DNA of 32,892 nt from Aggregatilineales bacterium (GTDB lineage Bacteria; Chloroflexota; Anaerolineae; Aggregatilineales; Phototrophicaceae): positions 1 through 32,892 of the forward strand of contig JARKOK010000025.1 in assembly GCA_029975765.1 (NCBI GenBank), in the 5' to 3' direction. The notes beneath the pieces are model-generated. The model had not been told where the DNA came from. It did no database searches and worked only from the letters and a program-made list of their open reading frames with translations. Each line of letters opens with the position of its first letter. Position 1 is the first letter of the stretch. Made by a program: the position numbers and the translations under genes. Positions 5,901 through 32,892 of this stretch are shown piece by piece.

Positions 5901-6418
5901 TCCGTTCGATTGGTGAGCGCCGCGGCGTGGCGCTGGCGCTGGATAATCTGGGAGTGATTGCGGAATTTCAGGCGGATTATGCCCGCGCAACCCATTATTA
6001 TGAGGAAAGCCTGACGCTGGCACGCAGCATCGGCAATCGGCGCGGCGTGGCTACCACGCTGGTTAATCTGGGCAACGTGGCACGGGCGCGCGGCGAAAAC
6101 GACCGGGCGATGGCCTATTATCAGGATGGTTTGCGGCACGCGCGCGAGATTGAAGCTGTGCCTACGCTGCTGGAAGGGCTGGTCGGACTGGCGGCGCTGC
6201 AACCCGACCCGCTGCGCGCGCTGGAATGGCTGGGACTGGTGCTGAACCACCCCGCCACCTATGAGGGTACGCGTAAGGTCGCCGCGCCGGTGCTGGAACG
6301 CCTGAAGATAACGCTGCCGGCGGATCACATCGAGGCCGGACTGGCGCGGGGAACATCGCTCGATCTTCACGCGGCAGTGGCCGACGCGCTGGTCGTGAAC
6401 AGCCTGCAAACGAAGTAA
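2912..6418 (+). CDS. Ser/Thr protein kinase fused to AAA-type ATPase and TPR repeats
   Basis: This 1168-residue protein has three modules. (1) A Hanks-type kinase spans about 33-350: glycine loop GEGGMGEVY, VAL-Lys in strand 3, catalytic HRDLKPAN (about 164-171), DFG at about 184, and GTLAYMAPE. All catalytic residues are present. (2) An ATPase (AAA_16-like) starts at FVGRGAEL with Walker A GESGVGKT (about 408) and Walker B-like LLLEDLQW (about 516). (3) Seven TPR units of 40 residues run from about 800 to 1080 with a repeating GDY signature. A roughly 60-residue acidic Asp/Glu/Pro-rich stretch (about 265-325) interrupts the kinase C-lobe. No membrane segment is visible, so it is cytosolic. 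AGGTG sits 5 nt before the ATG at 2912. A stronger GGTGAGGGG sits 9 nt before the in-frame ATG at 2975, so the protein may start 21 residues later. Targets are unknown. Confidence 0.9.
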   Translation: MKRLKLIDGWMSVSAGEGTNRMSAVFGMPVGRRYALLEKLGEGGMGEVYRAFDGLTRQTVALKRVRIPKDLSHADPEALRSESDGLRLALAQEFHTLASLRHPHIISVLDYGFDEERQPYFTMDYLEDAKGLLAAAYAQPVETKVSLLVQVLQAVAYLHRRGIIHRDLKPANVLVTDGQVKVLDFGLSLMHDRADETEQNVVGTLAYMAPEVLAGDTAGQPADLYAVGIMAYELLVGRHPFNADNVGMLIHDIMYSSPDLSALYELNDLPSADPIFLPDDSTSELEITFPDSDRASPFDTDVFLPEESLALEPDDMDALAGSLTPTALPNIIARLLEKKPSQRYASAEVVIAQLEASVLFPLPKEGAAIRESYLQAARFVGRGAELHQLEAALEAAERGQGSAWLIAGESGVGKTRLLDELRIRALVRGCQMLRGQAVAEGGLPYQLWRDPVRRLILSTDLDDLDAGILKDLVSDIDLLQQREIPDVPVLEGVAYQQRLVGAIANLFQRQQQPTVLLLEDLQWSRESLDVLKQLCGMAQDLPLLILASYRDDERPDLPQMFPTAQRLKLGRLEAQHIASLSGSMLGEAGRQPQLISFLERETEGNVFFLVEVVRALAEEAGSLDRVSAAALPASVAAGGIDRFVQRRLSRVPEGDTELLWLAAVAGRELDLALLDCVKGDRHLETWLTTCSNCAVLEVQDGHWRFAHDKLRTGTLAIIPPDARPDLHRRMAEAIETVYGEAPEYAAILAQHWGSAQNLLKERQYRQRAGQHALHVSAFLDAINAFERALELLDKTTEPGAAAQTLQAELLLHLGEALKYTGEYDAASLHLEHALELRRHLNDPAGIALVSLELGDLRIYQGDYQEAKNLCEASLTLYRELKQEEGIAHALDRLGLVLFHQGDYAGAIALCEEGLSISRTTGDQKSIASAINNLGMAAFAQGDYLAAGRYFEETLTITQASGERRRAAAALLNLGSAAGEQQDYETANRHFEQSLTIFRSIGERRGVALALDNLGVIAEFQADYARATHYYEESLTLARSIGNRRGVATTLVNLGNVARARGENDRAMAYYQDGLRHAREIEAVPTLLEGLVGLAALQPDPLRALEWLGLVLNHPATYEGTRKVAAPVLERLKITLPADHIEAGLARGTSLDLHAAVADALVVNSLQTK
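5791..5810 (+). repeat. 10-bp perfect tandem duplication inside the TPR region
   Basis: CGGCGAGCGG occurs twice head to tail, followed by CGGCGGCG, within the fifth TPR of the kinase-ATPase-TPR gene. The unit length is not a multiple of three, so gain or loss of one copy would shift the frame. The present two copies keep this TPR exactly 40 residues long, like its neighbours. Confidence 0.8.
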
Positions 6419-6459: not shown

Positions 6460-6484
6460 ATAAGCCGGCAGGTGTGCGGCTTAT
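6460..6484. terminator. second inverted repeat between convergent genes
   Basis: ATAAGCCG (6460-6467) pairs with CGGCTTAT (6477-6484) across a 9-nt loop. The right arm contains the stop codon of the minus-strand FG-GAP cytochrome gene (6481-6483). Lacking a clear T run on either strand, it is only a candidate bidirectional terminator. Confidence 0.4.
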
Positions 6485-8622: not shown

Positions 8623-8641
8623 ATATCACCTTCAGGCCGCG

Positions 8642-10480
8642 TTAAAGCGACAACAAAAACGCGATCAGATCGTGCAACTGCTGCTCGGTCAGTTGATTCG
8701 CAACACTGTGTACCGGATCGGTGCGGGTCAGCAGTTCAGCCAGGGTTTGCGCCACGCCGTCGTGCAGATATGGCGCGGTTGCCCACAGGCCGCGCAGCGT
8801 GGGGGTATCAAACGCCTCATATTCTTCCAGCGAAAAGCCCGCTCCGGCCAGATTGTGCGCTTTCAGGTCGGTGTACAGCGGCGGCGAGTGGCAGCTGCAA
8901 TCCGGCGAGCCGCTCAGAAACAGATTCATACCGCGCTGCGCCGCTTCGCTTAACGAGCCGTCCGGCAGACGGTAGGGACTCGGCCAGGGTTCGAGCGAAG
9001 CGACATAGGCAGCCAGCGCATCCAGATCGGCGGAGCGCCCGGCGTCGGGCTGGTTGGTGGTAGGATCAAACTCACCGCTGATGAGGCCGTCACCGAACAT
9101 AACATTACGAATCTGATCCTCAATCGTATCGTGCAGTTCGGCCATATCGCCCGCCCAGTTGTACGGCGGCAGCGCCGCCGCGCCGCCCAGCGCCGGGGTG
9201 TTACGCGGGCCGCTGCGGAAGTTGATCCAGGTGCGCCCGTCGGCGCCGCCATCGAAGTGGCAGGTGGCACAGCTAATCGAGCCGTCACTTAAGGCCGCAT
9301 CGCCGGCGCGGTGGAACAGGATTTTGCCGCGCAGCAGTTGGGGAGTGAGAGGAATAGTTGTGAGATGGACGGCTGCCGAAACGGTGTTTTCGGCTGTGTT
9401 GATGACTGACAGCGTGCCATCCAGCGCGTTGAGCACGAACACACGGCGGTCATCAGCCAGCACGCCAGTGGGATTCGCGCCGACTGGAATCCGTGCCTGC
9501 ACCTGGCGGGTGGCAGCGTCCAATGCCAGCACCGCATCGCTGCTCGCCAGCGCAACATACAGCGTATCGCCGGCAAAGGCCGCATCGCTTGGGCGATTGG
9601 CGGCGTGGTCGAGGGCGGAGAGGGTCAGTCGGGCGGCGCGGTCGCCGGTCATGGTAGTTACATCCAGCACGCTGACAGCCGGAAACCAGTCCTGCATGTA
9701 CTGTAAGGAGATCAGCGCCAGACCGGTACGGGTCAGCGGCAGGTAAGCGCGCTGGCCGTCCGGCGCGAGGACGATGGAGCCGGCGAGATGGCCGTCGGGT
9801 TCGACATTGACCGTGCCAGCTAAAAAAGGCGTGCGCTGCACGTTCAGGAGCGAAACCTGCCCGCTGTAAAAATGCGTGACCAGCAGCCAGTCGCCGCTGA
9901 GTGCCAGACCGGCGGGCGCGTCTGGAACGGAAACGGTGTGCAGAACGGCACCGGTGTTAACATCCAGCACGGCGATTTCGTCGCTGCCAAACAGGCTGAC
10001 ATAAACACGCCGCCCATCAGTGACAACACCGTAAGGCAGGTGGCCGACAGGTAGACTGGTTTCGGGCTGGAGGGTATCGAGATTGATGACCGCCAGCGCG
10101 TTGTCGCCGCGCAGCGCCACCAGCGCGCGTGTGCCGTCCGGCGTGATGGCGACCGAACGCGGGTCGTCGCCCACCGGGATTTCGGCCAGTATGTTAAGGC
10201 TGGCGGTATCCACCAGTGTGATACTGTCGCTGTCCGCATTGGCGGCGATGAGCGTCCGGCGGTGCAGCGCCATAGGTTTGCTGGATTGGCTGTTCATCAG
10301 CGGCGGCAGCGCGGGCAGCGGCAGGGGTGTTTGTACCGGCGTCAGCAGCAGCGGCACGGGCGTGATTTCGACCGTCGGTGTAGGAGTGCGGAACAGGGTC
10401 GGCGTGGGTGCCGGCGGCGCGGCACAGGCAGCCAGCAGCCAGAGCATACCGAAGATGAGGCTGATGCGGCGGCTCATCAT
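8642..10480 (-). CDS. YVTN beta-propeller / dihaem cytochrome c peroxidase-like lipoprotein
   Basis: The protein has 612 residues. It begins with a lipoprotein signal (LLAACAAPP, lipidated Cys near residue 19) and a Pro/Thr linker. Residues about 70-375 are YVTN/NHL-type repeats (NILAEIPVGDDPRSVAITPDG, shortened here to its core VGDDPRSVAITPDG, and similar). Residues about 380-610 match the MauG/cytochrome c peroxidase family: first heme site CATCH (about 402-406) and the family signature TPTLRGLWATAPYLHDG. The second heme site is read as CSCH (about 527-530), one residue short of CxxCH, which is unusual. The family reduces peroxide or oxidises protein or small-molecule donors outside the membrane. 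Its start overlaps the pentaheme cytochrome stop by 4 nt (ATGA), so the two are translationally coupled. Confidence 0.87.
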   Translation of the reverse strand: MMSRRISLIFGMLWLLAACAAPPAPTPTLFRTPTPTVEITPVPLLLTPVQTPLPLPALPPLMNSQSSKPMALHRRTLIAANADSDSITLVDTASLNILAEIPVGDDPRSVAITPDGTRALVALRGDNALAVINLDTLQPETSLPVGHLPYGVVTDGRRVYVSLFGSDEIAVLDVNTGAVLHTVSVPDAPAGLALSGDWLLVTHFYSGQVSLLNVQRTPFLAGTVNVEPDGHLAGSIVLAPDGQRAYLPLTRTGLALISLQYMQDWFPAVSVLDVTTMTGDRAARLTLSALDHAANRPSDAAFAGDTLYVALASSDAVLALDAATRQVQARIPVGANPTGVLADDRRVFVLNALDGTLSVINTAENTVSAAVHLTTIPLTPQLLRGKILFHRAGDAALSDGSISCATCHFDGGADGRTWINFRSGPRNTPALGGAAALPPYNWAGDMAELHDTIEDQIRNVMFGDGLISGEFDPTTNQPDAGRSADLDALAAYVASLEPWPSPYRLPDGSLSEAAQRGMNLFLSGSPDCSCHSPPLYTDLKAHNLAGAGFSLEEYEAFDTPTLRGLWATAPYLHDGVAQTLAELLTRTDPVHSVANQLTEQQLHDLIAFLLSL

Positions 10481-12165
10481 TCGATCACCACCCGGGTTTG
10501 TTCCATCAGAATGTCTGGCGTGTCCCAGCCTTTTTGCTGCATCAGTTCGATGAAGGCGCGGCGAAATATCAGGCGGGCTTCGACCACTGACGCACCGCTG
10601 GAGGGGAGGCGAAAACGATAAACGGACTCGTCTGTCGCCAGCGCCGGTATGCGGTTGTCGCTGACCAGCCGCGTCTGCCGCCAGTAGGCGGTGGTCGGTG
10701 TTTCGCCGGTGTAAAAGTCAGCCAGCACTTTCGCATACAGCACCCCCGGCAGTCCGGCATAATTGCCGCTTTCGGGATCACCCACGCCGCCCCAGTCAGG
10801 GATAATCGGGCCATCCACCAGCGCGAGCGGCTGTCCCTGCGAGTCGCGGGCATCCACCAGCAGCAGCATATTCCGCAGGGGATTATCTGTCGGGATGTGG
10901 TGTCCGGCTAAAGCGTTGGTGACACGCGCGGTCACGACCAGATCAATCCCCTCCACACGGGCTGTCAGTTCCAGTTCTGCCGTGTTTTGCAGCAGATGAA
11001 CATCTGCCGCGCCGGGCATCCGGTGGCTGAAGATCGTCGCCGGGTCGCGTTCCGGTACGAACTGGTTCACATCCGGCGGCAGGCTGACGAAGGTGGTCAT
11101 GCCCAGGCGCGGCATGTGACAGTCCTGGCAGGTCTGGCCGGCGGCGGGGTCACTGTACGGGCTGGCGAGCCATTCACCATAGCTGTTGTACATCGTGACG
11201 CCCCAGAACGTGCCGGTATGGCAGGCCGCGCACAGGCGGCTGTCGTCCTGCAAAGGGGAATATACGTCGTCACCGGGTGTATCGTCGAAGGGGCCGATGA
11301 AAATTTGTTCGCCATCCGGTGGGCGCAGCATCGCTATAGATAACACGCCCGGTAAATGAGGGGCGGGCAGGTTGCTTGCTGCCACGCGCACATCCCAGAG
11401 TTTGTGGCAGAAATCGCAGGTGATGCCCTCGCGCGCCACTCCGGTCGCCTGGGTTGGATCGGCGTTGTAGGGCGATTCCAGCGCCAGCAGCGGCACGTGA
11501 CAGGTGGCACATGGGCCGGCTTGATTGGGAAAATCCAGCCGGAAACCCGCGCCTGTGCTGTCCTGTCCCAGTGATGGCGCGACCGGTATGTTTACGGCGC
11601 TGGCCGAGTCAAAGCGGTAGGTGGTGGGTTCGCCAGTTTCGCCGGTGAGCGTTGTGCCGGTGTAGAGCGAGAGGAAACGTGGATTGACGGCGGCGCTGGC
11701 GTGAGCGTCCTGGAGCCATTCGTCCACCGGCAGCGAAAGCTGCGGCGCATCGGCGGGGGCGCGATGGCAGCGCGCGCAGGCTGAAGGGTGGTCAGGGTCA
11801 AGCGTGGGGCTGATGAAAGCGTAGTCGGGATTGTCGGTGGTCGGGTGGCGGTGCAGATGCAGGTTTACAGCCTTATCAGGCGAAACGGCCTCTGTGACCG
11901 CAATATAATACCCCGGCGACCAGGCCGTAATATGCACCGGCGCATCCGAAACGGAAAGTTCAAAAGCGCCGTCGGTATTCGTCAGAACGTACTCGGCATG
12001 GCCCTGCACGCGGACAACAGCGTTGACGACCGGCTGCGCTTCAGCCAGTACCACACCGCGCAGAACCAGGGTCGTCGGTTTTGAAGCCAGTGTGCCGATT
12101 ATGAGGAGGCCGCCAGCGGCCAGCGCCAGCAGTCCGATTCCCGCCAGTCGTTTGATGTTCATCAT
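10477..12165 (-). CDS. membrane-anchored pentaheme cytochrome c
   Basis: The protein has 562 residues. An N-terminal hydrophobic segment (about 7-27) acts as signal or anchor. Residues about 32-100 resemble a carboxypeptidase-regulatory-like beta-sandwich (LRGVVLAEAQPVVNAVVRV, then TDGAFELSV). Five CxxCH heme sites follow: C130-H134, C219-H223, C250-H254, C312-H316 and C346-H350. Extra His residues (for example SHRMPGAADVH and AGHHIPTDN) could be distal ligands. The arrangement resembles the cytochrome c554/multiheme group. The C-terminal 200 residues form a beta-rich domain without hemes. It is coupled to the peroxidase-like lipoprotein by an ATGA overlap, suggesting that this cytochrome and the lipoprotein exchange electrons. 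The start is ATGATG; no strong ribosome site is visible, so residue 1 or 2 may be the start. Confidence 0.88.
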   Translation of the reverse strand: MMNIKRLAGIGLLALAAGGLLIIGTLASKPTTLVLRGVVLAEAQPVVNAVVRVQGHAEYVLTNTDGAFELSVSDAPVHITAWSPGYYIAVTEAVSPDKAVNLHLHRHPTTDNPDYAFISPTLDPDHPSACARCHRAPADAPQLSLPVDEWLQDAHASAAVNPRFLSLYTGTTLTGETGEPTTYRFDSASAVNIPVAPSLGQDSTGAGFRLDFPNQAGPCATCHVPLLALESPYNADPTQATGVAREGITCDFCHKLWDVRVAASNLPAPHLPGVLSIAMLRPPDGEQIFIGPFDDTPGDDVYSPLQDDSRLCAACHTGTFWGVTMYNSYGEWLASPYSDPAAGQTCQDCHMPRLGMTTFVSLPPDVNQFVPERDPATIFSHRMPGAADVHLLQNTAELELTARVEGIDLVVTARVTNALAGHHIPTDNPLRNMLLLVDARDSQGQPLALVDGPIIPDWGGVGDPESGNYAGLPGVLYAKVLADFYTGETPTTAYWRQTRLVSDNRIPALATDESVYRFRLPSSGASVVEARLIFRRAFIELMQQKGWDTPDILMEQTRVVIE

Positions 12166-22298: not shown

Positions 22299-23087
22299 AT
22301 GGACTCGTTACGGAAGCCGTTTTTGATTCTGGCAGTCGTATTAAGTGTTCTGATTGTGGTGATCGAAATTGGCGCGCAGTTGATCCCTGCTAACGCCGGG
22401 GTACTCGACAAAGCGCAGTTTGCGAAAGATCCAGAGATACTTGATGCCTTCACTAAGGTGGACATGGATGTTCAGCAGGGCGACCGTCCGCCGGGCATGG
22501 GCATTACCTACATGGCGCTGGTAGATGCCGAAGTGTTGTTTACCGTCGGGTTAATCGGCGCGGCGCTGCTGGTTCCCCCGCGCGTGCAGGCGCGCACGCA
22601 GGGCTGCGTGACCTGCGTTTTTTCGGTGCTGGTGATTCTGGGTACTATCGGCATGATCTTTCTGGCGCTGGGGCTGCTCATCCTGATGATTTCGCTGTTT
22701 CTGGCTGTGCCGTTTGGCACCATTGCTTATCTGGCAGTATATGGCTTCTTCAATCGGGGTGGCGCCAGCGGCGTCCTGGCTTTACTGATGCTGCTGAAAC
22801 TGGGCATGGGGGCGAGTTTAATCCTGGCGCAGCAGCGGTTTCTGCAAAACAAAGGACTGGTACTGCTCATCCTCACGTCGCTGCTGTGTAATGTGATAAT
22901 CGGTTTTTTACATGGTCTTGTGCCGATTATTCTGGTCAGCATTACCGACGCCATCGGCGCCATTTGTGTGGCGATTCTGGCGATTATCTGGGCGATCTTT
23001 TTGCTGATTGGCTCGGTTGGCTCCATCCTCAAGATTATCCGCCCCGACCCATCCGGTAAGGGCGATTTAAGGATTCAGCCGGAATGA
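22299..23087 (+). CDS. multi-spanning membrane protein, function unknown
   Basis: The protein has 262 residues. I do not recognise the family. It has an N-terminal hydrophobic segment (about 7-29), an outside-type loop of about 40 residues ending in QQGDRPPGMG, then about six further hydrophobic segments between 68 and 245. A short polar tail (KIIRPDPSGKGDLRIQPE) is the C-terminus. Single Cys residues occur in GCVTC (about 101-105). GGAG lies 8 nt before the ATG, so the start is well supported. It has its own weak promoter after a strong terminator, so it is probably not part of the ABC operon. Its last 21 nt overlap the 3' end of the opposite-strand gene. Confidence 0.75.
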   Translation: MDSLRKPFLILAVVLSVLIVVIEIGAQLIPANAGVLDKAQFAKDPEILDAFTKVDMDVQQGDRPPGMGITYMALVDAEVLFTVGLIGAALLVPPRVQARTQGCVTCVFSVLVILGTIGMIFLALGLLILMISLFLAVPFGTIAYLAVYGFFNRGGASGVLALLMLLKLGMGASLILAQQRFLQNKGLVLLILTSLLCNVIIGFLHGLVPIILVSITDAIGAICVAILAIIWAIFLLIGSVGSILKIIRPDPSGKGDLRIQPE

Positions 23088-23606
23088 ACATTGATTCGTG
23101 CCTGACGCGCCGTCGCTGCAAATAATCGTCAGCGTGCCGCCATGCTGACGCACGCCGATAGAGATCGTGTTCCGATTGGCGTTAAGCGTTGCGCCATAGG
23201 CAATATCACTTTTGTCCGGTATGCCGGTCACAAACGGTACGTAAGTGAGGTTGACCACCGGCGCGCCAGCGGCATTTACAGCGAGTTTGAGTGTTCGTGA
23301 ACGGGTATCCGAGGCGCGAAACGTAAACCGGCAGGAAGCGGTTTCTGTAAGCACAAATACTGGCGTTCCGCTAAAGACAGTAGTGGGGCAAGCCTGCGGC
23401 GCACCCCAGTTCACGTCATTACTGCCAATGCGTGGGCTGAAGCTGTTCCCGATGCCCTCAATCCAGGATACATCCAGATTAAAGGGGGCAGGTGTGCCCT
23501 GCGCGTTGCTGCCCTCACCGTCTTTGGTGATGAAGCCCGCCCCCATACCCACAAAAAAGAGAAGCACGAGGACTACGACCAGGATAATCAGTGTTTTCTG
23601 GTTCAT
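23067..23606 (-). CDS. single-pass exported protein, function unknown
   Basis: The protein has 179 residues. An N-terminal membrane anchor (TLIILVVVLVLLFFVGMGAG) is followed by a linker and a beta-rich extracytoplasmic part. Four Cys residues (in APQACP, TASCRF, IICSDG and NQCSF) could make two disulfides. No family is recognised. GAGGA lies upstream of the ATG. It starts 24 nt after the TolB-propeller gene and is probably co-transcribed with it. It is the last gene of this minus-strand group and overlaps the convergent membrane protein gene by 21 nt. Confidence 0.75.
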   Translation of the reverse strand: MNQKTLIILVVVLVLLFFVGMGAGFITKDGEGSNAQGTPAPFNLDVSWIEGIGNSFSPRIGSNDVNWGAPQACPTTVFSGTPVFVLTETASCRFTFRASDTRSRTLKLAVNAAGAPVVNLTYVPFVTGIPDKSDIAYGATLNANRNTISIGVRQHGGTLTIICSDGASGTNQCSFRLNP

Positions 23607-23630: not shown

Positions 23631-25319
23631 CTAGGGTTGCCAGAACACCTCGTAGTCGCTGCCCGGGTCCTGGCTCACGTTGACCGCCGTTCCTCTCCCG
23701 TCAGCGGCGATGACATAGATTTCGATGTCGCCATCCCGATTTGAAGTGAAGGCAATCTGGCGGCCATCGGGCGACCAGAGCGGCCTGTAATCCTGAGCCG
23801 GATTCTGGGAGAAGTTTTCGGCTGCGCCGGTATCGGCGTTCACTACATAAATCTCCCACTGGTTGGTACGATAGGATTGGAATGCGATGCGGCGGCTGTC
23901 CGGTGACCAGACGGCGTTGTAGTCACCGGCGGGATTGTTGGAGAGGTTTCGGGGCGCGCCGCTGCCGTCAGTATTAACAACATAGATTTCATCGTTGCTT
24001 CCGGTAGAAGACTGGAAGACGATGCGGCGGCCATCAGGCGACCACACGGGGGAATATTCGTTCCCCGGCAAATTGGAGAGATTACGAGCCGCACCCGTGC
24101 CGTCGGAATTCCGCACGTAAATATCGTTGCTGCCGCTGCGGTTGGACGTAAACGCAATCAGGCGGTTATCAGGCGACCAATAGGCATCATAGTCGTGCTG
24201 GGGGTCATTTGAAATGTTAATCGGCGCGCCGCTGCCGTCCGCGTTGACAACGTAAATTTCGTTGTTGTTCGTCCGGTAGGACTGATAGAGCAGGCGGCGG
24301 CTGTCTGATGACCATCTGGGGTCGGAGTCGCTGCCGGCGTGGTTGGTCAGATTACGGAGTGTTCCGCTGCCGTCGGCGTTCGCCACAAAGATTTCGCTGT
24401 TGCCGGTACGGATCGAAATAAACGCGACAAGCCGGCTGTCCGGCGACCAGCGGGGGTCGAAATCGGCTTTAGGGTCTTTGGACAGGTTGACCGGCGTCCC
24501 GCTGCCATCGGCATTCGCCACATAAATTTCCCAGTTTGAGTTGTCTCGATAAGACTGGAAGGCGATTTTGCGGCTGTCCGGCGACCAGACTGGCGTCTCA
24601 TCCGATCCGGGATTGTTGCTGATATTTACCGGCGTGCTCTTACCATCAGCGTTGACGACATAAATTTCAGAACTCACGCCGTCGTAAGCGACATACACAA
24701 TGCGGCTGCCATCAGGCGACCATTGAGCGTTATAGCCGTTCTGTCCAAACGCCTGCCGCCCTGTACCATCGGGAAATACAACACGCAGGGTAGACACGCC
24801 CTGATTGTCCGAATTGGTGAACAGCAGCCGTCTGGGGGGACGGGTGGCAAAATAGATAATCACGCCGATGATGATCACCACTACGGCCACGACAGCCAGA
24901 ATCCACCAGGGAAATTTTTTGGGCGGTGGCGGAGGCGGTGGCGGCGCGGTATTGTCCGGCACGGTGAAGGTTACGGTTGGCCCTTCCACCAGGGTTTCAT
25001 CTGGATTGGTGATTTCCACCATATTCAGCCGGAAAACGTAATTGCCAGCCGGGGCATCCATCGGAACGAGAATCTGGACGCTGTACTGCTGAACGCCGGC
25101 GATGGGGAAGGGGCGCTCGGCGTCCCCCGATAAAGTCAGCCAGGCGGCGGACACGGCATCCTGCGGTGCTAAACTGGCGCGCCCGCGCAGCGCCCGACCG
25201 GAACGGTTGGTAACAGTATAGGCCGCTTCTCCCCGGCGCGTTTCTTTATTTAACACGACGGAATTGGTTGAGGTGGTGATGTCAAAGTAGGCGGCCATCA
25301 ATTTCTGTTCGTTATCCAT
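23631..25319 (-). CDS. membrane-anchored TolB/PD40 beta-propeller with N-terminal beta-sandwich domain
   Basis: The protein has 562 residues. Residues about 11-122 form a beta-sandwich-type domain shared with the next gene upstream (about 60 of 110 residues identical by hand alignment). A polyproline linker (PPPPPPPPKK) follows, then one membrane segment (about 139-160). Residues about 167-562 are eight tandem units of about 45 residues, each with WSPDSR and EIYVVNADGSG-type motifs, of the TolB/PD40 family, plus a split first blade. There is no N-terminal signal, so the sandwich domain is probably cytoplasmic and the propeller outside (inference; basic residues flank both sides of the membrane segment). 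GGAG lies 5 nt before the start. It lies downstream of the injection-system genes on the same strand. Confidence 0.85.
   Translation of the reverse strand: MDNEQKLMAAYFDITTSTNSVVLNKETRRGEAAYTVTNRSGRALRGRASLAPQDAVSAAWLTLSGDAERPFPIAGVQQYSVQILVPMDAPAGNYVFRLNMVEITNPDETLVEGPTVTFTVPDNTAPPPPPPPPKKFPWWILAVVAVVVIIIGVIIYFATRPPRRLLFTNSDNQGVSTLRVVFPDGTGRQAFGQNGYNAQWSPDGSRIVYVAYDGVSSEIYVVNADGKSTPVNISNNPGSDETPVWSPDSRKIAFQSYRDNSNWEIYVANADGSGTPVNLSKDPKADFDPRWSPDSRLVAFISIRTGNSEIFVANADGSGTLRNLTNHAGSDSDPRWSSDSRRLLYQSYRTNNNEIYVVNADGSGAPINISNDPQHDYDAYWSPDNRLIAFTSNRSGSNDIYVRNSDGTGAARNLSNLPGNEYSPVWSPDGRRIVFQSSTGSNDEIYVVNTDGSGAPRNLSNNPAGDYNAVWSPDSRRIAFQSYRTNQWEIYVVNADTGAAENFSQNPAQDYRPLWSPDGRQIAFTSNRDGDIEIYVIAADGRGTAVNVSQDPGSDYEVFWQP
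23640..24760 (-). repeat. eight tandem units of about 135 bp encoding propeller blades
   Basis: Successive units encode the same blade pattern (WSPDSR, then FQSYRT, then EIYVVNADGSG, then NLSNNP). Their DNA is similar enough to look like tandem repeats, with recurring segments near 23880, 24010, 24145, 24295, 24435 and 24570. The units are coding and diverged, so they arose by duplication within the gene. Confidence 0.75.
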
Positions 25320-25384: not shown

Positions 25385-26182
25385 CTAAAAAGCGCCAGTT
25401 TTCCAGCGCAGCGTAATTCCCCGCGCGATCACGCCAGGCGCGATCAGCCAGAGCGGCAGCACAACAAAGAGAACGAGAATGGCACGAATGGTATCGCCCG
25501 TCAGGATATTAAAGATCAATGCGAGCAGCAGGAAACACACAATCGTCCAGGCGAAAACTACTGCCGCAAATATACCGGCAGTCTCACGCGGCCAGTTAAG
25601 TGAGCGAGTATTCAGCGCGATATACACCCCCAGTGATGAGCCGATCCACGGGCCAAGCGCCAGCGTGCCAATGGCGACAACACCGGCCAGGTCCTTGAAT
25701 ATCTGGTTGACGATAACACCGAGAATCAGCGCCAGCACGATGCCAGCCGTGATGCCGGCGAGCAGGCCAACTACCGCGCCGACGACGGTGGTGATGTACC
25801 CCTTTTGGGTCTGCGGCGGTTCCGGTGGAGGGCCGGGGCGGTCAGTGAGGGTGAAGGCCACGCTGGGGCCTTCAGTAAAGAACTCATCCGGGTTCTCGAC
25901 GCCGATCATGTCCAGCCGGAAGATATAGGTTCCGGCGGGAACATCGGCAGGGACGGCGATCTGGACGGTATACTGCTGCGCCCCCGCGATGCTGAACAGC
26001 CGCTCTGCCTGCCCCACAATGCTAAACCATGCGGGTGAGGCTGCCCCCTGGGGCGCGATGCGTGCCAGGCCGCGAACGGGCTGGCCGCTGGTGTTGGTAA
26101 CGGTGAAGGATACTTCCCCTCGGCGCTGGCTGTCCAGATTAACTCGGGTTTCAGCCGCAGTAATATCAAACAGGCTGGGCAT
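25385..26182 (-). CDS. polytopic membrane protein sharing an N-terminal beta-sandwich domain with its neighbour
   Basis: The protein has 265 residues. Residues about 3-113 align without long gaps to the N-terminal domain of the TolB-propeller protein; shared stretches include RRGE, TVTN, IAG, QQY, PAG, FRL and NPDE. A Pro-rich linker follows (about 115-125), then about four to five hydrophobic segments in the C-terminal half with glycine-rich helices. No signal peptide precedes the domain. I start at the ATG at 26182 because AGGAG lies 8 nt upstream; an earlier in-frame ATG at 26209 has no such site. Function unknown. A TATAAT element about 100 nt upstream suggests that this gene and the two after it have their own promoter. 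Confidence 0.82.
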   Translation of the reverse strand: MPSLFDITAAETRVNLDSQRRGEVSFTVTNTSGQPVRGLARIAPQGAASPAWFSIVGQAERLFSIAGAQQYTVQIAVPADVPAGTYIFRLDMIGVENPDEFFTEGPSVAFTLTDRPGPPPEPPQTQKGYITTVVGAVVGLLAGITAGIVLALILGVIVNQIFKDLAGVVAIGTLALGPWIGSSLGVYIALNTRSLNWPRETAGIFAAVVFAWTIVCFLLLALIFNILTGDTIRAILVLFVVLPLWLIAPGVIARGITLRWKTGAF

Positions 26183-26280
26183 GACGCTCTCTCCTGCTGC
26201 CGTTGCCATCCCTGGGGATGGGGTGACCGGGTAAGTGGGGCGCTGTCCTGGCCGGACGTTCGCGCGCTCACATACTAACC

Positions 26281-26698: not shown

Positions 26699-27229
26699 TC
26701 AATAGAATTCCAGCGTATAGGTCACGTAGGCTGGTTTTTCCAGTTCGATAACCTGCTCGATCAACCCCCGGTGGGCTTTCGTTGTTTGCGGGGCGCGCAC
26801 ATGCAGGTGGAAAGGGCGCGGCACACCATCTTCGCCCGGCACCTGTTCATCAATCTCAAAACCAAGCGTGCCGGTGGCAGTTTCCAGAAAGCGCAGCAAA
26901 CCTTTACGAGTACCGCGCCACCGGGAAATAAAAGCGGCGGCGGCGACGAGTTCTCGCAGTTGGCCGATTCCGGTTGGAAACGTGGCGGCGTTCGGCTCCT
27001 CCGTTACCCCGACGAGCAGGGTTTCCAGATCAACCCAACCGGCGAGATACGGCACGAAGGCATCCGGTGTGCGATACGGATCGAAGTAACGTTCGAGATT
27101 CTCCAGCACTGCTTCGGAGGGCGCGTGCAGGGTTTCCATCGCATTCAGCAGTGCCGCCAGCAGACCACCCGGACGGATCGTTTGCTGGAAAATGCCAGGC
27201 AGCAGGCGTTCGATTTCAGTTCGCTTCAT
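26699..27229 (-). CDS. contractile injection system tail protein I-like baseplate protein
   Basis: The protein has 176 residues. It matches the phage tail protein I-like family found in extracellular contractile injection systems (Afp12-type position). Conserved features include LERYFDPYRTPDAFVPYLAGWVD-type sequence (DP, then TP, then the aromatic-rich LAGWVDL), SRWRGTRKGLLRFLE, and a C-terminal strand YVTYTLEFY. The family links baseplate wedge arms. I start at the ATG at 27229, which overlaps the stop of the J-like gene by 14 nt, implying coupled translation. The protein is shorter than many relatives, which carry extra C-terminal parts. Confidence 0.8.
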   Translation of the reverse strand: MKRTEIERLLPGIFQQTIRPGGLLAALLNAMETLHAPSEAVLENLERYFDPYRTPDAFVPYLAGWVDLETLLVGVTEEPNAATFPTGIGQLRELVAAAAFISRWRGTRKGLLRFLETATGTLGFEIDEQVPGEDGVPRPFHLHVRAPQTTKAHRGLIEQVIELEKPAYVTYTLEFY

Positions 27230-29783
27230 CTTCCGGCACCACCTCGATCTCAGGCGCGTCACAGACGAATAACCAGGTCTGCGGCAGCGTCACCCGTTCA
27301 ACAAACTCGCGCTGCGACACAGACAGGTAATTCACACCCTGGTCGGCGCTGCGATAAATGCCGGCGATACCGCCAGCCATCAGCAGGCGCGCCTGCGGGT
27401 CGGCGGCGACGGTATCCACGATGTGAAACCGTCCGGCATCACGCAGCGGCAGGCCGCAGTTGATGTCCGGCATCTGCCATTCGGGGGTGCTGGCGCTGGA
27501 GTCCAGGCGCAGCACGCCGCCCCGGTGAGATGCCGCAAATACCCACGAGCCATGAAACGCGAGTCCCCGGCAGCTACCGCCTTTCCAGCCCCGGCTGACC
27601 GGCTGAAACTTCAGCGGGTCGTCCTCCGCGCCGCGCAGTTCCCACCGGAAACTACCTTTGCCATCTTCGCCGCCAGTGGCCGCCGCCCCCGCCCACAGAA
27701 ACGAGCGCGTGCCGATGACCTGTACGGCCAGTTCACGGATGTCTTCTCCGCGCAGGCCAATGTCGCGGAATGATTTCGTCATGCCGCCATCACTGGACAG
27801 GAACACGCCGCTTGACTTCTGCGCGGCAACGGCGACATTAACGCCCGCCGCGCCGTAGGTTGACGCCGCGACAGCATAGAAACCTAAATCCTGATCATCG
27901 GCTTTGACCACAATCTGATTCAGGCCGCCGCCCGGCGCGACGATTAACTCAAACAGGCCAACATCCGAGGCCAGCAGCAGCACCGGTTGAGTCTTGCGCG
28001 GCACCCAGGCAATGTCGCGCACGACAAAACCAAGTGTGTACGGGGTGAACTCCCAGGTTTCCCCGCAGTTTTCCGAGACATATATCCTTGACTCGGTGCC
28101 GCTGGGCAGGCTGGTGGCAACCGCCAGAAAGCCCGGACGATCCGGGTGGGACTGCACAACATCAATCACTTCGTCAGGAAATTCATTGACGGACTCAAAA
28201 CTCTCACCGTCGTTCAGCGACCGGAACAAGGTGCTGCCCGAACCGGCGTACCATGTCTGCGGCTGCGAGTAGTCCGCTATGATCGTTCGAACGGCGGTGT
28301 CGGGCACTTCGCTGACCAGCAGCCGCACTTTGTCAACCCAGCGCACACTCGGTTCGGCCAGGGCAATATCATAAACATGGGAAGCGCGCAGCGCCTGACC
28401 GAACGGCCACCCGCTGCGGCTGTAGCGCGTGGGCAGGGGACTGATCGTCTGGTACAGGCGCTCGACAACCCGCTGCCGTACCGCTGCGCGGTCTTCCTCT
28501 CGCCGCACGACGATGCGCGCAGTGACTTTTACCGTTTTGTAACGCGCCCAGTTGACCAGACAGGTGGTGCCCAGCGGCCGGCGTTCGTCCAGCGCGGCCT
28601 GAATTTGCGCGCGGGCTTCTTCGGTTTCCCGCAGTTGCAGGGCATCTGCCGTCACCTGGCTGCCGCGCTGGTCTTCTGGCAGGAAGGGTACCAGCAGCAC
28701 CTCGACCGTGCCGGGCGCGGCATACGTCCACAGCGCGGCGCGGGTGAAGGCTTTGGCACGGGCGACCGCGCGCGAGCTGTACAGCGCGATCAGCTCGAAA
28801 TCCTGGGCGGTCACGGCGCGTTGTAACGAGTGGAGTTCCTGCGGGCCGCGCAGCAGGGCGTTCTCCAATGATTCTGCCGCCCGGCCACCGGTGGCCGCGC
28901 CGGGATTCGTCACCTGCACGCCCGCGATGGGTTCTTTGAGGACGGTAAGCGTTTCCGGTGCGACGTTGCCTTCCGGTCCGCCGCCGCGTTTATACCATAC
29001 GCGGATTTCGCGGCCACTGGCCGGAATCGCGGCGAGCGCCTGCGGCACGTCTTCGAGCGTGGTATCCGGGTTCTGCATCCGGGCTGCCGGGGCAAAGGTG
29101 ATGATGCCGTCCATACGGTCAACGACATACACAAATGGATCCGGACCGAGGTTCGTAAAATTATCCACTTCACGCCAGATGCGGAATGGACGGCCATCGT
29201 ACTGGATGGCCGGGGCGCGTTCATCCAGTTCATCCGGGATAGCTTCGACCGCGACGGTTAAGTCCAGTTCGGCGACAATCGGCGGGCGGCGCACTCTGAG
29301 TGACAGCCCCGGTAAACCCGTACCCCTGCCGACCAGTTCGGCTTCAATCCAGTCCACGTGATGCGCCAGCACGTCCACAAAAGTTTCGCCGGGAGCGATG
29401 GTAGCATCTTCGGCGGTAATGAACATCGGCGGCTCGGCCTTGCTGTCGGTGCGGTTGAGCGTAACCCGCCGCCCGCGCGGGATGGAAACGGCACGTGTGC
29501 CGGCGCGGGCGCGGCTGAATCGCAGCGTGACGCTGGCCGCCGCCGGGGGGTAAACCTTGACGCCCAGCAGCCGCAGAAAGGCGATATAGGCTTTGTCCGG
29601 CAGGCGGTTAAGGCGGTAGATCATGGTTTCGGTGAGATACGCGAACAGCTCCAGCAGAACTATGCCGGGGTCGCTTTCGTTCAGGTCAGTCCAGTCCACG
29701 CCGGAACGGATGACCTCGCGGCGTGCTTCGTCTACCAGTTGGTCAAAACTGCGGTCATCGAGGTTGGGCAGCGGCAGCGGCAT
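27216..29783 (-). CDS. J-like baseplate protein fused to a C-terminal Asp-box beta-propeller
   Basis: The protein has 855 residues. The first 500 or so match the baseplate assembly protein J family of contractile injection systems (Afp11-type): VDWTDLNESDPGIVLLELFAY near residue 30-50 and KAYIAFLRLLGVKVYPPAAA are typical. Residues about 505-835 are not part of the usual J protein. They contain Asp-box/BNR motifs (RSLNDGESF, VSENCGETW, LSSDGGMTKSF, RSADQGVNY) typical of sialidase, sortilin or YCF48 propellers. The J part forms the wedge ring around the spike; the propeller would project from the baseplate, possibly as a cage or target-binding part (inference). The start ATG shares one base with the stop of the gp25-like gene. 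Confidence 0.87.
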   Translation of the reverse strand: MPLPLPNLDDRSFDQLVDEARREVIRSGVDWTDLNESDPGIVLLELFAYLTETMIYRLNRLPDKAYIAFLRLLGVKVYPPAAASVTLRFSRARAGTRAVSIPRGRRVTLNRTDSKAEPPMFITAEDATIAPGETFVDVLAHHVDWIEAELVGRGTGLPGLSLRVRRPPIVAELDLTVAVEAIPDELDERAPAIQYDGRPFRIWREVDNFTNLGPDPFVYVVDRMDGIITFAPAARMQNPDTTLEDVPQALAAIPASGREIRVWYKRGGGPEGNVAPETLTVLKEPIAGVQVTNPGAATGGRAAESLENALLRGPQELHSLQRAVTAQDFELIALYSSRAVARAKAFTRAALWTYAAPGTVEVLLVPFLPEDQRGSQVTADALQLRETEEARAQIQAALDERRPLGTTCLVNWARYKTVKVTARIVVRREEDRAAVRQRVVERLYQTISPLPTRYSRSGWPFGQALRASHVYDIALAEPSVRWVDKVRLLVSEVPDTAVRTIIADYSQPQTWYAGSGSTLFRSLNDGESFESVNEFPDEVIDVVQSHPDRPGFLAVATSLPSGTESRIYVSENCGETWEFTPYTLGFVVRDIAWVPRKTQPVLLLASDVGLFELIVAPGGGLNQIVVKADDQDLGFYAVAASTYGAAGVNVAVAAQKSSGVFLSSDGGMTKSFRDIGLRGEDIRELAVQVIGTRSFLWAGAAATGGEDGKGSFRWELRGAEDDPLKFQPVSRGWKGGSCRGLAFHGSWVFAASHRGGVLRLDSSASTPEWQMPDINCGLPLRDAGRFHIVDTVAADPQARLLMAGGIAGIYRSADQGVNYLSVSQREFVERVTLPQTWLFVCDAPEIEVVPEDEAN

Positions 29784-30217
29784 CAGCTTGTCCCTCCTGC
29801 TAAGTTGAGCGACAGGCGCAGCGAGTCCACCCGCTGCGTCACCCGGACGCGGTAGTCCAGAAAAATATCCAGCCGTCCGGGGTCAGTCTCGTTTGCCTGG
29901 GCATCCAGGCGGATAATTTCGATACGCGGTTCCCACTGCTCCAACGCCCGGCGGACATAATAAATTGCTAAACCGGCGGTCGTGTCGTCCGCTGGCATAA
30001 ACATCAGTTGATGAATCTGGCAGCCATAACGCGGGCGCATGATACGTTCGCCGGGTTCGGTGGACAGCAGCAGTAAAATTGCCTGTCGCACCGAATCACT
30101 GTCCTGCACCATCTCCACCCCGCCGCGCGGATTGAGCGCCAGCCCGGCGAAATCCGGCGGGGCATCCAACTGCGGGTAGATGAAACGCCAGGCGCGGTAA
30201 CGCGGTGCGTTTGCCAT
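29783..30217 (-). CDS. gp25-like baseplate wedge protein
   Basis: The protein has 144 residues. It matches the GPW/gp25 family (Afp9-type). The core LLLLSTEPGERIMRPRYGC (about 47-66) is the family signature. Despite the old name, these proteins are structural; they connect sheath and baseplate wedges. Its position between the PAAR-like and J-like genes fits the known order of such clusters. Start and stop each share one base with the neighbouring genes, so it is translated as part of a chain. Confidence 0.85.
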   Translation of the reverse strand: MANAPRYRAWRFIYPQLDAPPDFAGLALNPRGGVEMVQDSDSVRQAILLLLSTEPGERIMRPRYGCQIHQLMFMPADDTTAGLAIYYVRRALEQWEPRIEIIRLDAQANETDPGRLDIFLDYRVRVTQRVDSLRLSLNLAGGTS

Positions 30218-30558
30218 TAACCCACCTCCGTCACAAACATCTGGCCGGGATGGTTAACTTTGTAGTGGATCAAACCGGGCGGTGTGCCGTCGGTGAAGCC
30301 GGTGACGGTATCGAGGCAGATGCGCCGGCCTTCAATCCGAATGAAATCGGAATAACCCACCTGCACGCGCAGTGTGGTCAAACACGGTTTGATGGTGACC
30401 CCGTAGTTGGGACAGCCGCCAATCGAACGGCCTTCCGGGTCAATTTCGACCAGCACTTTACGCCGCTGAATCGTGACGAGACTCTGCGTCGGGTTATTCT
30501 TGACGATACCCAGTTCGTGTTCACAGACCACCAGTGCATCTTCAGTGAGTACCTTCAT
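30217..30558 (-). CDS. PAAR-like spike tip protein
   Basis: The protein has 113 residues. It fits the small PAAR-like proteins found between the VgrG-like and baseplate genes in contractile injection systems (Afp10-type position). Features are an N-terminal VVCEHELG (C12, H14), the motif GCPNYGVTIKPC (C49, C59) and the closing CLDTVTGFTDGTPPG (C81). Conserved Cys/His residues suggest metal binding at the tip, as in PAAR proteins; a three-fold cone cannot be proven by eye. The start shares one base with the VgrG stop. Confidence 0.65.
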   Translation of the reverse strand: MKVLTEDALVVCEHELGIVKNNPTQSLVTIQRRKVLVEIDPEGRSIGGCPNYGVTIKPCLTTLRVQVGYSDFIRIEGRRICLDTVTGFTDGTPPGLIHYKVNHPGQMFVTEVG

Positions 30559-32075
30559 CAGCCCCTCTCAAAATTAATCGCCTGACCACGAACAGTAATG
30601 GTGCGACCGGGCGCTTCGATGTCCAGATCGGTTGCCGCATGAACGCGGACTTTCTGCGGCGCGAGTTCAACATAACTGCCATCCTGATTTTCGATACGAA
30701 TCACATGATGGGTATCATCCAGCCGGATACGCTGGCCGCCAGGGGTGAGCAGCGTGTAGCGCCGTACCGCTCCGCTTTCAATGCCGACATCCGGCGGGCC
30801 GTTCACACCGTACAGGCTGCCGATAATCACGCCCTGGCCGGGGTCATCGTCGGCAAACAGCACCAGCACCATGTCGTCCACGTCTGGTTGGGCCATCAGA
30901 CCTTTGCCCGCGCCCGCGCCGACGGAGAGCAGGCTCATCCATCCGGTTTCAACATTGCCATAGGTGGGCAGCGAGACTCGCACGCGCCCGACGTTCTCCG
31001 GGTCGTCTATCTGCGTGACAATGCCCAGCGCCGCCGTTGGCGGGCGGGGTGGGGTGATGGGCGGCGGCGCGGTCGAAAATTCTGAAATGAAGCCGGTGCG
31101 TTTGCTGACCTGGTGCGTCACGGATGTCAGCACGTAGCGCCCGGTGATGGTGGGGGCGAGATTAAATACCTGTACCGGCGCGCCGGGGCGCAGACGTGGG
31201 TCACCTTCGGCCACGCCCCACAGCACCACCTCGCGGGCGACACGGGCATCCAGTTCCGCCTGGGCGAAGGCCTCGGCATGGGTGTCGTCCTGCGTAACCT
31301 CATTGACCAGATCGCGCGTACCAGCGCCGCCGACCCGTTCCGGCGGTGCATCGGCCATGACGCTGCGCCCGACACGCGCGCCGGACACCTGCGCGGTATG
31401 CATTTCCACACGCAGCGGATTCCAGCCGGCGGCGGCGACCGACCGCACGGCAGGATCGGCGTTGATGTCCACTCGCGCCTCGAACAGCGACTCGCCCAGA
31501 ATCAGAGGGATTTCATCGCCGATCCCTTCGAGCGTAAGCAGGTGGAGAATGTTTTCCCGCAGTGTCAGATACAGGCCGCAGCGTTCCGCCAGTCCAACCA
31601 GCAGCTCCATATCAGACTGCCGGTGCTGGATGAGCCGCTGCCAGATCGGGCCAACCTCGGCGGCTTCGACGGTCAGGCCGAGGTCATTCACCAGATCGCG
31701 GGCCAGATCAAACGGCGTGACCTGGATATGCGCCCGCACCGTCTGCCGCTTCCGCAGGCGGTGCAGCAGGTCGTAACCGCGCACGCGCAGTTCGCGCCCA
31801 TTAGACGTGCCATAAACATATTCGGTGCCGGTGACTTCGCCCACAAACAGCGGGGTGGGGTGTCCGCTGACTAACACCCGGAAAGCCGTACCGAGGTCAA
31901 GCATGGAGGTAATGCGCGCCGGGTCGGGCGCATCATAAAAGACCAGTTCACACAAGGCAGGCAGCGAGAGGCGCTGCTGCACGCGCACTTCGCTTAAGGC
32001 GAAGGTGTCCCCGGCGGAGAGCGCACTGCCGCCGGTTTCAATCGTAATCGTCGGTAAGGCGAAAACGCGGTTCAT
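30558..32075 (-). CDS. VgrG-like central spike protein
   Basis: The protein has 505 residues. Residues about 1-340 match the phage late control D/gp27-like barrels (for example RVRGYDLLHRLRKRQTVRAH and the central ERCGLYLTLREN). Residues about 355-440 match the gp5 OB domain (LGIVTQIDDPENVGRVRV, QPDVDDMVLVLFADDDPGQG, IIGSLYG). Residues about 445-505 form a short beta-helix-like needle (GGQRIRLDDTHHVIRIENQDGS). There is no extra effector domain. The protein forms the trimeric spike that breaks the target membrane. ATG overlaps the LysM gene stop by 4 nt. Confidence 0.9.
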   Translation of the reverse strand: MNRVFALPTITIETGGSALSAGDTFALSEVRVQQRLSLPALCELVFYDAPDPARITSMLDLGTAFRVLVSGHPTPLFVGEVTGTEYVYGTSNGRELRVRGYDLLHRLRKRQTVRAHIQVTPFDLARDLVNDLGLTVEAAEVGPIWQRLIQHRQSDMELLVGLAERCGLYLTLRENILHLLTLEGIGDEIPLILGESLFEARVDINADPAVRSVAAAGWNPLRVEMHTAQVSGARVGRSVMADAPPERVGGAGTRDLVNEVTQDDTHAEAFAQAELDARVAREVVLWGVAEGDPRLRPGAPVQVFNLAPTITGRYVLTSVTHQVSKRTGFISEFSTAPPPITPPRPPTAALGIVTQIDDPENVGRVRVSLPTYGNVETGWMSLLSVGAGAGKGLMAQPDVDDMVLVLFADDDPGQGVIIGSLYGVNGPPDVGIESGAVRRYTLLTPGGQRIRLDDTHHVIRIENQDGSYVELAPQKVRVHAATDLDIEAPGRTITVRGQAINFERG

Positions 32076-32800
32076 GCCAGCGGCCCCAGTCCTTGCAGGC
32101 GCGGCAGCCGCAGTACCGTGCCGGGGGGAATATCGTTCGGGTCAGCGAGTCCGTTGAAAGCGGCGATCAACCGCCAGAAGGAGGGATTGCCATAATGCCG
32201 GAAGGCGATTTCGTCCAGCCGTTCACCGGCGATGTATTCGTAAACGGGGATGTCTTCGTCCGAAGGTTCGATATTTTCCAGTGTCTCGACGGGCACGGCT
32301 TCCAGATCGTAGTCCGGCACGGCGGTGGGCTGCTGGGCCACCGCTTCGCTGACCCGCAGCAGCCGCATTCGCAGCCATGAGCGTTGGGCCGCGCCCGATG
32401 TGGTGAAACGCTCCAGCCGTTCGGATACGGCTGTCACCACACCGGGAATATTCCACGATTTGCCCCAGACAAAACGCACGATGCGCGGCTGGCGGTAGCC
32501 ATCTATATTGGTGGCGTTTTCCGCCAGATTCCAGAAAATGCCGGTCAGATCGCGCACGTCTTCAGTTGTGACGGAGGATCCGGCCAGCCAGATATCAAAC
32601 AGCAGATCGAGTTCAAGCTCGGTTTTCCCGCCGCCGGTGTAGAACACCGGATCATCACTGAGGCCGAGACCGGTGATATGGCCGCCCGCCAGCGGGCGCG
32701 GCTGCACGCCGGCAGTACGGCGCAGCACCAGACTTTCCGGGTTGAGCATACAGCCGATGCGCTGGTTGGTTTCCTCAATTAAGAAAGAGGCTCGCTCCAT
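32072..32800 (-). CDS. LysM-containing baseplate hub protein
   Basis: The protein has 242 residues. The C-terminus is a LysM motif (EYIAGERLDEIAFRHYGNP, then FNGLADPNDIPPGTVLRLP). The first 180 residues form a beta-rich domain typical of the Afp7-type gene placed before VgrG. It joins the inner tube to the spike. I start at the ATG at 32800 with AGGA about 7 nt upstream; a GTG at 32839 is less likely. The gene ends in a 4-nt overlap with the VgrG-like gene. It is the first complete gene of this operon in the window. Confidence 0.85.
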   Translation of the reverse strand: MERASFLIEETNQRIGCMLNPESLVLRRTAGVQPRPLAGGHITGLGLSDDPVFYTGGGKTELELDLLFDIWLAGSSVTTEDVRDLTGIFWNLAENATNIDGYRQPRIVRFVWGKSWNIPGVVTAVSERLERFTTSGAAQRSWLRMRLLRVSEAVAQQPTAVPDYDLEAVPVETLENIEPSDEDIPVYEYIAGERLDEIAFRHYGNPSFWRLIAAFNGLADPNDIPPGTVLRLPRLQGLGPLA

Positions 32801-32892
32801 GCCAATCCTCGCTGTTCTCGATCCAGGCGGTCGCGCCACTTCCAGGCGCGGCTGATAACACTTTCGTCCGTTTCAGGGCTGCCGGCTGATTC
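32779..32892 (-). CDS. possible C-terminal end of the preceding injection-system gene
   Basis: A reading frame open from the right edge encodes 37 residues, ending RAWKWRDRLDREQRGLAWSEPLS, and overlaps the LysM gene start by 22 nt. The overlap fits the coupled style of this operon. A second frame is also open to a nearby stop (ending GASLFLN), so the choice is uncertain. Confidence 0.3.
   Translation of the reverse strand, partial: ESAGSPETDESVISRAWKWRDRLDREQRGLAWSEPLS

Follow-up and report, generated by a model that had tools for sequence, protein, structure and literature searches.

Contractile injection systems (CISs) related to the one described here have been studied in several bacteria. 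In Streptomyces, each baseplate wedge holds two copies of Cis11, there are no fibers, and CisA, encoded downstream, is required for firing; AlphaFold-Multimer named Cis11 as the likely partner of CisA, and a contact between CisA and the baseplate could not be confirmed (PMC12237407). In the Anabaena tCIS, an extended C terminus of Cis11 contacts the fiber-like anchor Cis13 (PMC8894136), the cage of AlgoCIS is domain IV of Alg11, an internal domain (PMC8894135), and Roseiflexus has a cytoplasmic system without a close CisA homolog (PMC12998442). Here we describe a CIS gene cluster on a 32,892-nucleotide contig of an Aggregatilineales bacterium of the phylum Chloroflexota (JARKOK010000025.1; “the window” is this whole stretch), in which the gene for the baseplate J protein also encodes a beta-propeller. 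Alg11 and the Anabaena proteins Cis11 and Cis12 are comparable: they, too, belong to the baseplate and carry additional domains associated with attachment or anchoring.

The J-propeller gene encodes a baseplate J protein and a seven-bladed Asp-box beta-propeller in one intact frame (Table 1), a combination first proposed in a sequence-only reading of the window and borne out by the unbroken 855-amino-acid (aa) frame, the family matches, and a predicted wheel. Residues 1 to 489 match TIGR02243 (E = 4.8e-74; 250.1 bits, above the curated cut-off of 155.8) and the Pfam family Baseplate_J (57.3 bits; cut-off, 21.1). They also match PDB chain 9gtp_1K (E = 1e-61), a J-like protein of the Streptomyces coelicolor baseplate that is present as 12 chains in structure 9GTP and that, from its name and chain count, we take to be Cis11. 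The two proteins have the N-terminal and central J regions, the terminal strand, and the gene order gp25-J-Tail_P2_I in common, but 9gtp_1K lacks the propeller and has about 155 extra residues in its middle. The full domain order of canonical TIGR02243/Baseplate_J proteins is likewise not kept in the window protein, which lacks about 149 internal residues (residues 136 to 284 of the canonical protein of locus L014 in a joint alignment) and carries the propeller before the final strand. The J part of a full-length AlphaFold model (five-row alignment) is unreliable, with a mean predicted local distance difference test score (pLDDT) of 54, so the identity of J rests on sequence.

The propeller domain alone was predicted from a five-row alignment with a pLDDT of 78 and a predicted template modeling score of 0.81, values that describe a prediction and not an experimental structure. 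The domain-only model contains 26 strands of at least three residues and two shorter ones, which, grouped in order, give seven four-stranded blades, the outer strand of blade 6 consisting of one residue; the run of strands is seen in both the full-length and the domain-only predictions. The C-terminal region is thus predicted to form a seven-bladed wheel and not a normal J arm, the outcome that would have spoken against the fusion. The four Asp-box motifs that had been read from the sequence start at residues 522, 570, 663, and 812, on or next to the c-d hairpin in blades 1, 2, 4, and 7, and the three other blades lack the motif. The c-d hairpin is the usual position of an Asp-box. A strict pattern takes three of the four, and at least three are reached in 1 of 10,000 sequence shuffles. 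The propeller had been placed at 27216 to 28290; it is present there, but the propeller proper spans about 27315 to 28292, and the last 30 residues (27216 to about 27308) belong to a strand of J.

Foldseek comparison of the wheel with the PDB gives GH74 propeller enzymes as the best matches (E = 6.4e-11), with YCF48 and WD40/RACK1 wheels lower and no baseplate protein among the best 50; comparison with a viral library gives propeller-like matches, the named ones including a tail fiber and a BNR protein. With a propeller profile built from five relatives, the PDB matches are BNR glycosyl hydrolases and xyloglucanases (3b7f, E = 3.5e-8; 6p2k, E = 4.9e-6), and all Pfam matches to the C-terminal part (sortilin, YCF48, and BNR) are below threshold. 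The domain therefore resembles known Asp-box propellers (Vps10/sortilin, YCF48, GH74, and sialidases) in its wheel fold and in the place of the motif, and it differs from them in having only subthreshold family matches, in being a single seven-bladed wheel, and in lying inside a baseplate protein. As regards membership in the glycoside hydrolases, judged here by propeller number and family scores, there is one propeller where GH74 enzymes have two and no match above a curated cut-off.

These fold matches bear on the possibility that the wheel is a receptor- or sugar-binding arm of an extracellular particle, used in place of tail fibers. Asp-box propellers are common in glycosidases (PMC2716378), beta-propeller lectins occur in the fibers of other systems (PMC12923769), the best fold matches are enzymes of family GH74, and no tail fiber gene was recognized among the proteins scanned. 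Receptor-binding domains tend to diversify, but this wheel is conserved across phyla: identity to the window protein across ten relatives is 32 to 80% in the propeller and 42 to 87% in the J core, and conservation is 0.578 versus 0.644. Sugar binding, one of the roles suggested from the sequence alone, is thus not favored by a wheel conserved almost like the J core, and a test for a conserved ligand face was negative. With only one propeller present and with companion membrane proteins that suggest an intracellular, membrane-linked machine, we regard a binding arm as clearly improbable.

Sequence comparisons place the propeller within the last beta-hairpin of J, where it replaces the loop. It had been described as following the wedge domain, but the wheel sits inside the terminal hairpin, and it is an insertion and not an appendage because the canonical final strand of J returns after it; this terminal-strand evidence rules out an appended C-terminal domain. 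The canonical strand is of the type LVFSYEHQVLV, with a His that is invariant in 31 of 31 proteins (the 30 best-scoring census loci of the window's phylum, which is not a random choice, and Streptomyces L013). The propeller J proteins end ERVTLPxTWLFCSGxHDIxVV, and 9 of the 11 aligned keep a His near their own C terminus, with Pro instead in the window protein and L003. This alignment omits L005, in which the frame is disrupted close to its end and bases are undetermined; L011, which nearly duplicates L010; NZ_CP015422.1; and G244, whose J lies partly on one contig and partly on another. With a short profile of the final canonical strand, 7 of the 11 give their best match at the C terminus, weakly (2.8 to 7.1 bits), whereas in L010 and L012 the sole match lies elsewhere with a negative score and the window protein and L003 have none. 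When 40-residue segments of the propeller J proteins were compared with the canonical tail by hhalign, the last two scored 27.3 and 26.2 (probabilities of 44% and 38%), three starting at 450 to 470, just before the wheel, scored 18 to 21, and all segments from 480 to 839 scored at most 7.9. In the joint alignment, residues 500 to 824 of the window protein interrupt canonical L014 after its residue 623 and before residue 624. The tail block 841 to 850 has a pLDDT of 77 when J is present versus about 55 in the domain alone.

The terminal hairpin of J is thereby an insertion site beside the internal cage site known from AlgoCIS. An outer cage around the spike has a precedent in Alg11, which is itself a J protein with a cage-forming extra domain (PMC8894135). 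The point of insertion and the fold are different here, however: the AlgoCIS domain is internal and CBM-like, whereas the internal region is shorter in the propeller J proteins, by about 149 residues. Because the Alg11 cage is an internal domain and the propeller J proteins lack internal residues, we consider a cage of the AlgoCIS type very improbable.

The word “propeller” is absent from the main texts of PMC12237407, PMC8894136, PMC8894135, PMC12998442, PMC10066040, PMC8213781, PMC12210884, and PMC13314943, and in the fiber catalogue PMC12923769 it occurs three times, for fibers. We found no published propeller or Asp-box baseplate and no PASTA-linked CIS in a search that covered titles, abstracts, and openly available papers but not subscription papers, supplements, or preprints held elsewhere. 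A Nostoc cyanophage paper containing both “bnr” and baseplate concerns separate genes and not a fusion.

Besides the window protein, 12 full-length copies of the fusion are present in genomes or plasmid records spanning five phyla (L003, L004, L006, L007, five plasmid records, G022, G116, and G260), and two further copies are broken (L005) or split (G244). Among genome contigs, 5 loci of 19 pattern candidates are relatives, all covering the wheel, with the labels Chloroflexi, Gemmatimonadetes, Acidobacteriaceae (L005, broken near its end), Marinobacterium, and Bryobacteraceae; flanking genes that L003 has in common with the window are 85.6% and 83.4% identical. Of 54 plasmid records with a J match, 5 have the wheel (three from Rhodovulum, one from Deinococcus, and one from Paracoccus). 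The genome assembly consists of 594 contigs, of which the window is one, and two genes could in principle have been joined during assembly; however, full-length relatives in independently assembled genomes and on complete plasmids refute such an error, and we give it practically no weight. The propeller-type clusters L009, L010, L011, and L012 lie on Deinococcus, Rhodovulum, and Paracoccus plasmids, which fits horizontal spread. The Deinococcus systems purified or imaged in PMC12998442 are not members, since the match on the D. grandis plasmid is in two pieces and of the nonpropeller type and the plasmids with the propeller are limited to the five just given.

Within the window's phylum, a TIGR02243 match above the cut-off is found in 59 of 301 genomes, and the wheel, at 146 bits or more, in 5 (G000, G022, G116, G260, and G244, the last split between contigs). 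Another 96 genomes match the wheel profile at no more than 45.6 bits, and we take these for generic Asp-box proteins. At most 3 candidates per genome were scored in the TIGR02243 census, which missed the propeller J of G260 that the wheel search found; the limits were 6 for the wheel, 12 for the adaptor described below, and 15 for the 113-aa protein of the cluster. In a tree of 11 propeller J proteins, 31 canonical ones, and 3 from viral contigs, the propeller type forms one clade (support, 1.0), which would most simply be explained by a single insertion followed by vertical and horizontal spread, plasmids included. An origin of the fusion in phages was rejected: none of 50,697 phage records contains a propeller match, and nine match the J part only. 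A search with the J alignment gave four viral-contig loci, L008 and L069 to L071; the J proteins of L069 to L071 are 732 to 740 aa long and have no wheel, and a match in L071 extending to residue 581 is a poor alignment over that protein's own tail. These three (L071:6001-8196 for L071) have a long middle region, and the canonical last strand is absent by profile match.

The cluster runs in the order Pvc16_N-like cap, sheath (about 393 aa), tube, variable protein, LysM/CIS-tube protein, VgrG, 113-aa protein, gp25, J, and Tail_P2_I. Genes 1 to 4 are on contig C579, whose first 141 bases are identical to the last 141 of the window. Together the two contigs encode a sheath, a tube, a VgrG spike, gp25, J, and a cap-like protein, a set that identifies a CIS. 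Every compared locus long enough to hold them has matches to the sheath and tube genes and to the whole series that starts with the LysM protein and ends with Tail_P2_I, whereas gene 4 was matched in few and the cap-position gene of L009, L010, and L012 was not matched by the L003 query. At 174 bits or more, the 113-aa protein of gene 7 is found in exactly the five wheel-bearing genomes of the 301. The propeller J protein thus marks a compact lineage of CISs. As for a compact cluster without a propeller, gene 7 gave one further, weak match (G025, 78 bits), which lies in another phage-like cluster and was rejected. Gene 4 (L066:31-939, continued at window 32782-32877) is poorly conserved, with 37% identity to L003 versus 72% for the sheath, and its product is possibly involved in length control or is a cargo. 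No tail fiber was recognized among the proteins scanned, which did not include every gene of every locus, nor were TssJLM or ClpV of type VI secretion, for which the genome was not searched. The S. coelicolor system is similar in having no recognized tail fiber and a membrane protein gene directly downstream; the Streptomyces plasmid cluster L013 differs in having a gene for an ATP-binding protein, a second tube-like gene, and a 1,020-aa protein, none seen at these places here.

The membrane protein genes mostly lie just downstream of the baseplate genes, in the position of CisA in Streptomyces and of tail fibers in other systems. Among their products, an adaptor-type protein recurs. Its N-terminal domain, about 115 aa long and often accompanied by an FPWW motif, is linked through a single hydrophobic span to a variable part, which is PASTA in L004, L006, L009, L010, and L012 and of no known family in L056, L058, and L067. 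PASTA is an outer domain. A third adaptor of the window's genome, on contig C156 of G000 (L065:4628-5986, minus strand), has FG-GAP repeats behind the span, which suggests that the machine is served by additional sensors. In each of the five propeller-J genomes among the 301, the best score with a profile of the adaptor N-terminal domain is at least 191 bits, and all matches of at least 179 bits fall in these five. Of the other 296, which include 54 with a TIGR02243 J above the cut-off but no propeller, 15 match in part, never above 29 bits, and 281 have no match. All 8 of the propeller-J genomes or records from outside this set also have the adaptor (103 to 237 bits), which brings the total to 13 of 13 at 103 bits or more. 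A naive probability of the 5-of-59 coincidence of adaptor and propeller J is 2e-7, although this treats as independent genomes that are not, and the machine may simply be passed on as a unit.

In G301 (the genome of L007) and G305 (the genome of L005), the adaptor is on a contig other than that of J, with the expected architecture and PASTA following. No adaptor lies within 10 kb of J in L007, and the J contig of G305 covers only 5 kb. Both adaptors adjoin homologs of the polytopic membrane protein, and that of G301 also a (weak) homolog of the small bitopic protein. The polytopic protein was matched in 14 of 19 loci searched (partly redundant, the window included), the match in L007 being a fragment; it adjoins most clusters and also adaptors on other contigs. 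The adaptor of G301 (L080:4014-5117, plus strand) has a Cpn60-like end after its PASTA repeat (PF00118, 30.7 bits, below the cut-off of 34.3). CisA resembles the adaptor in being bitopic, in its tail-fiber position, in its outer C-terminal domain, and in its proposed docking role (PMC12237407); however, the N-terminal part of CisA is described as largely unstructured, whereas the adaptor has a conserved domain of about 115 aa and varied outer domains. In sequence, the membrane protein of L013 is unrelated to the adaptor.

We tentatively favor, at somewhat less than an even chance, a role in which the propeller docks to the inner domain of the adaptor and triggers firing through J. Among the roles proposed from the sequence alone, a membrane partner is the best supported, and sugar binding and a cage found no support. 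Attached by two strands, the wheel would sit rigidly where each J subunit ends on the outside and would be a platform for docking and triggering, not an enzyme or a sugar-binding arm. Its most likely partner would be the N-terminal, cytosolic domain of the single-span adaptors that belong to the same system; the outer domains of these adaptors (TolB-like propeller, PASTA, and FG-GAP) may sense envelope or outside signals. By this contact, the particle would come to lie against the membrane of its own cell from within, and the firing signal would pass through J, as proposed for CisA and Cis11; if each wedge has two J copies, the number found in Streptomyces, a baseplate would carry twelve wheels. 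We prefer this role because a two-strand mounting suits a platform that bears force or a signal, because the wheel is conserved nearly as well as the J core, which speaks for a partner within the system itself, and because the conserved companions at the fiber or CisA position are membrane proteins that combine a constant inner part with a variable outer one. The wheel on the baseplate and the conserved adaptor domain form a concrete, testable pair for studying how fiberless intracellular injection systems find a membrane and time their firing.

Several points weigh against docking to the adaptor. Neither loop face of the wheel is distinguished by its conservation (top, 0.553; bottom, 0.544; 4,304 of 10,000 permutations as large), and the contact with the adaptor is an inferred one. 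The co-occurrence of adaptor and propeller could reflect a whole machine inherited together, and with 10 of the 13 adaptor positives having supplied rows of the profile, only three (G244, G301, and G305) are independent of it. The N-terminal domain may be Ig-like, as weak Pfam matches in one member hint, and would be cytosolic, given that no signal peptide is obvious and that PASTA is an outer domain. The adaptor profile has no significant match in the protein at the CisA position on the Streptomyces plasmid (L013:12524-13630, a proxy for SCO4242); by this proxy, the adaptor is not a CisA homolog of the kind found in cytoplasmic, Streptomyces-type CISs.

Because the same proteins lack another J region and no partner surface was found, a different explanation stays serious, if rather unlikely: the propeller may structurally replace the missing J region of about 149 residues, stabilizing the wedge ring or the contact with Tail_P2_I, with no membrane role. 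Absence and gain are both seen in the aligned propeller-type proteins, conservation of the propeller is close to that of the J core, the J and Tail_P2_I frames overlap, and no partner face stood out among the loops. However, the absent region is internal (canonical residues 136 to 284) while the gain is at the terminal hairpin, and replacement leaves unexplained the retention of the adaptor even on another contig. If the propeller does dock to the adaptor, these systems might, as a doubtful extension, form a separate class of CISs in which the particle docks from inside on the membrane of its own cell and about twelve propellers read adaptors with constant inner domains and interchangeable sensor domains outside, so that varied envelope or external signals would fire one machine.

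Table 1. Features of the injection-system region in the window (positions from the first base of the window)
Feature	Position	Strand	Basis or remark
Conserved polytopic membrane protein	22299..23087	+	Convergent to cluster; no Pfam match
Small protein, 179 aa, one N-terminal hydrophobic span	23067..23606	-	Relatives weakly similar
Adaptor 2	23631..25319	-	Conserved N-terminal domain, FPWW motif, one hydrophobic span, then PD40/TolB-like propeller
Adaptor-type protein 1	25385..26209	-	Conserved N-terminal domain and several hydrophobic spans
Small membrane protein, 113 aa	26307..26648	-	Several hydrophobic spans
Tail_P2_I baseplate protein	26699..27262	-	Family match; overlaps J stop
J-propeller gene	27216..29783	-	855 aa, ATG start, one frame without internal stop
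Canonical J terminal strand after propeller, residues 826-850	27234..27308	-	His column, segment scan, alignment
Seven-bladed Asp-box propeller, residues about 498-823	27315..28292	-	AlphaFold, Foldseek, blade assignment
Asp-box 4, SADQGVNY, blade 7 c-d hairpin	27327..27350	-	Motif scan and predicted strands
Asp-box 3 (looser), SSDGGMTKSF, blade 4 c-d hairpin	27768..27797	-	Motif scan and predicted strands
Asp-box 2, SENCGETW, blade 2 c-d hairpin	28053..28076	-	Motif scan and predicted strands
Asp-box 1, SLNDGESF, blade 1 c-d hairpin	28197..28220	-	Motif scan and predicted strands
TIGR02243/Baseplate_J core, residues 1-489	28317..29783	-	Lacks about 149 aa present in canonical members
gp25-like sheath initiator	29783..30217	-	Family match
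113-aa lineage protein	30217..30558	-	No family match; candidate spike tip
VgrG-like spike/hub	30558..32075	-	Family match
CIS tube-type protein with LysM	32072..32839	-	Family match
3' end of cluster gene 4	32782..32877	-	Overlap with contig C579

Elsewhere in the window, a 1,168-aa protein (2912-6418, plus strand) combines a Ser/Thr kinase, an AAA_16 ATPase, and TPR repeats. A run of three genes (6481-12165, minus strand) has cytochrome c-type matches, one of its products with FG-GAP repeats and one with YNCE/lactonase-like propeller matches.

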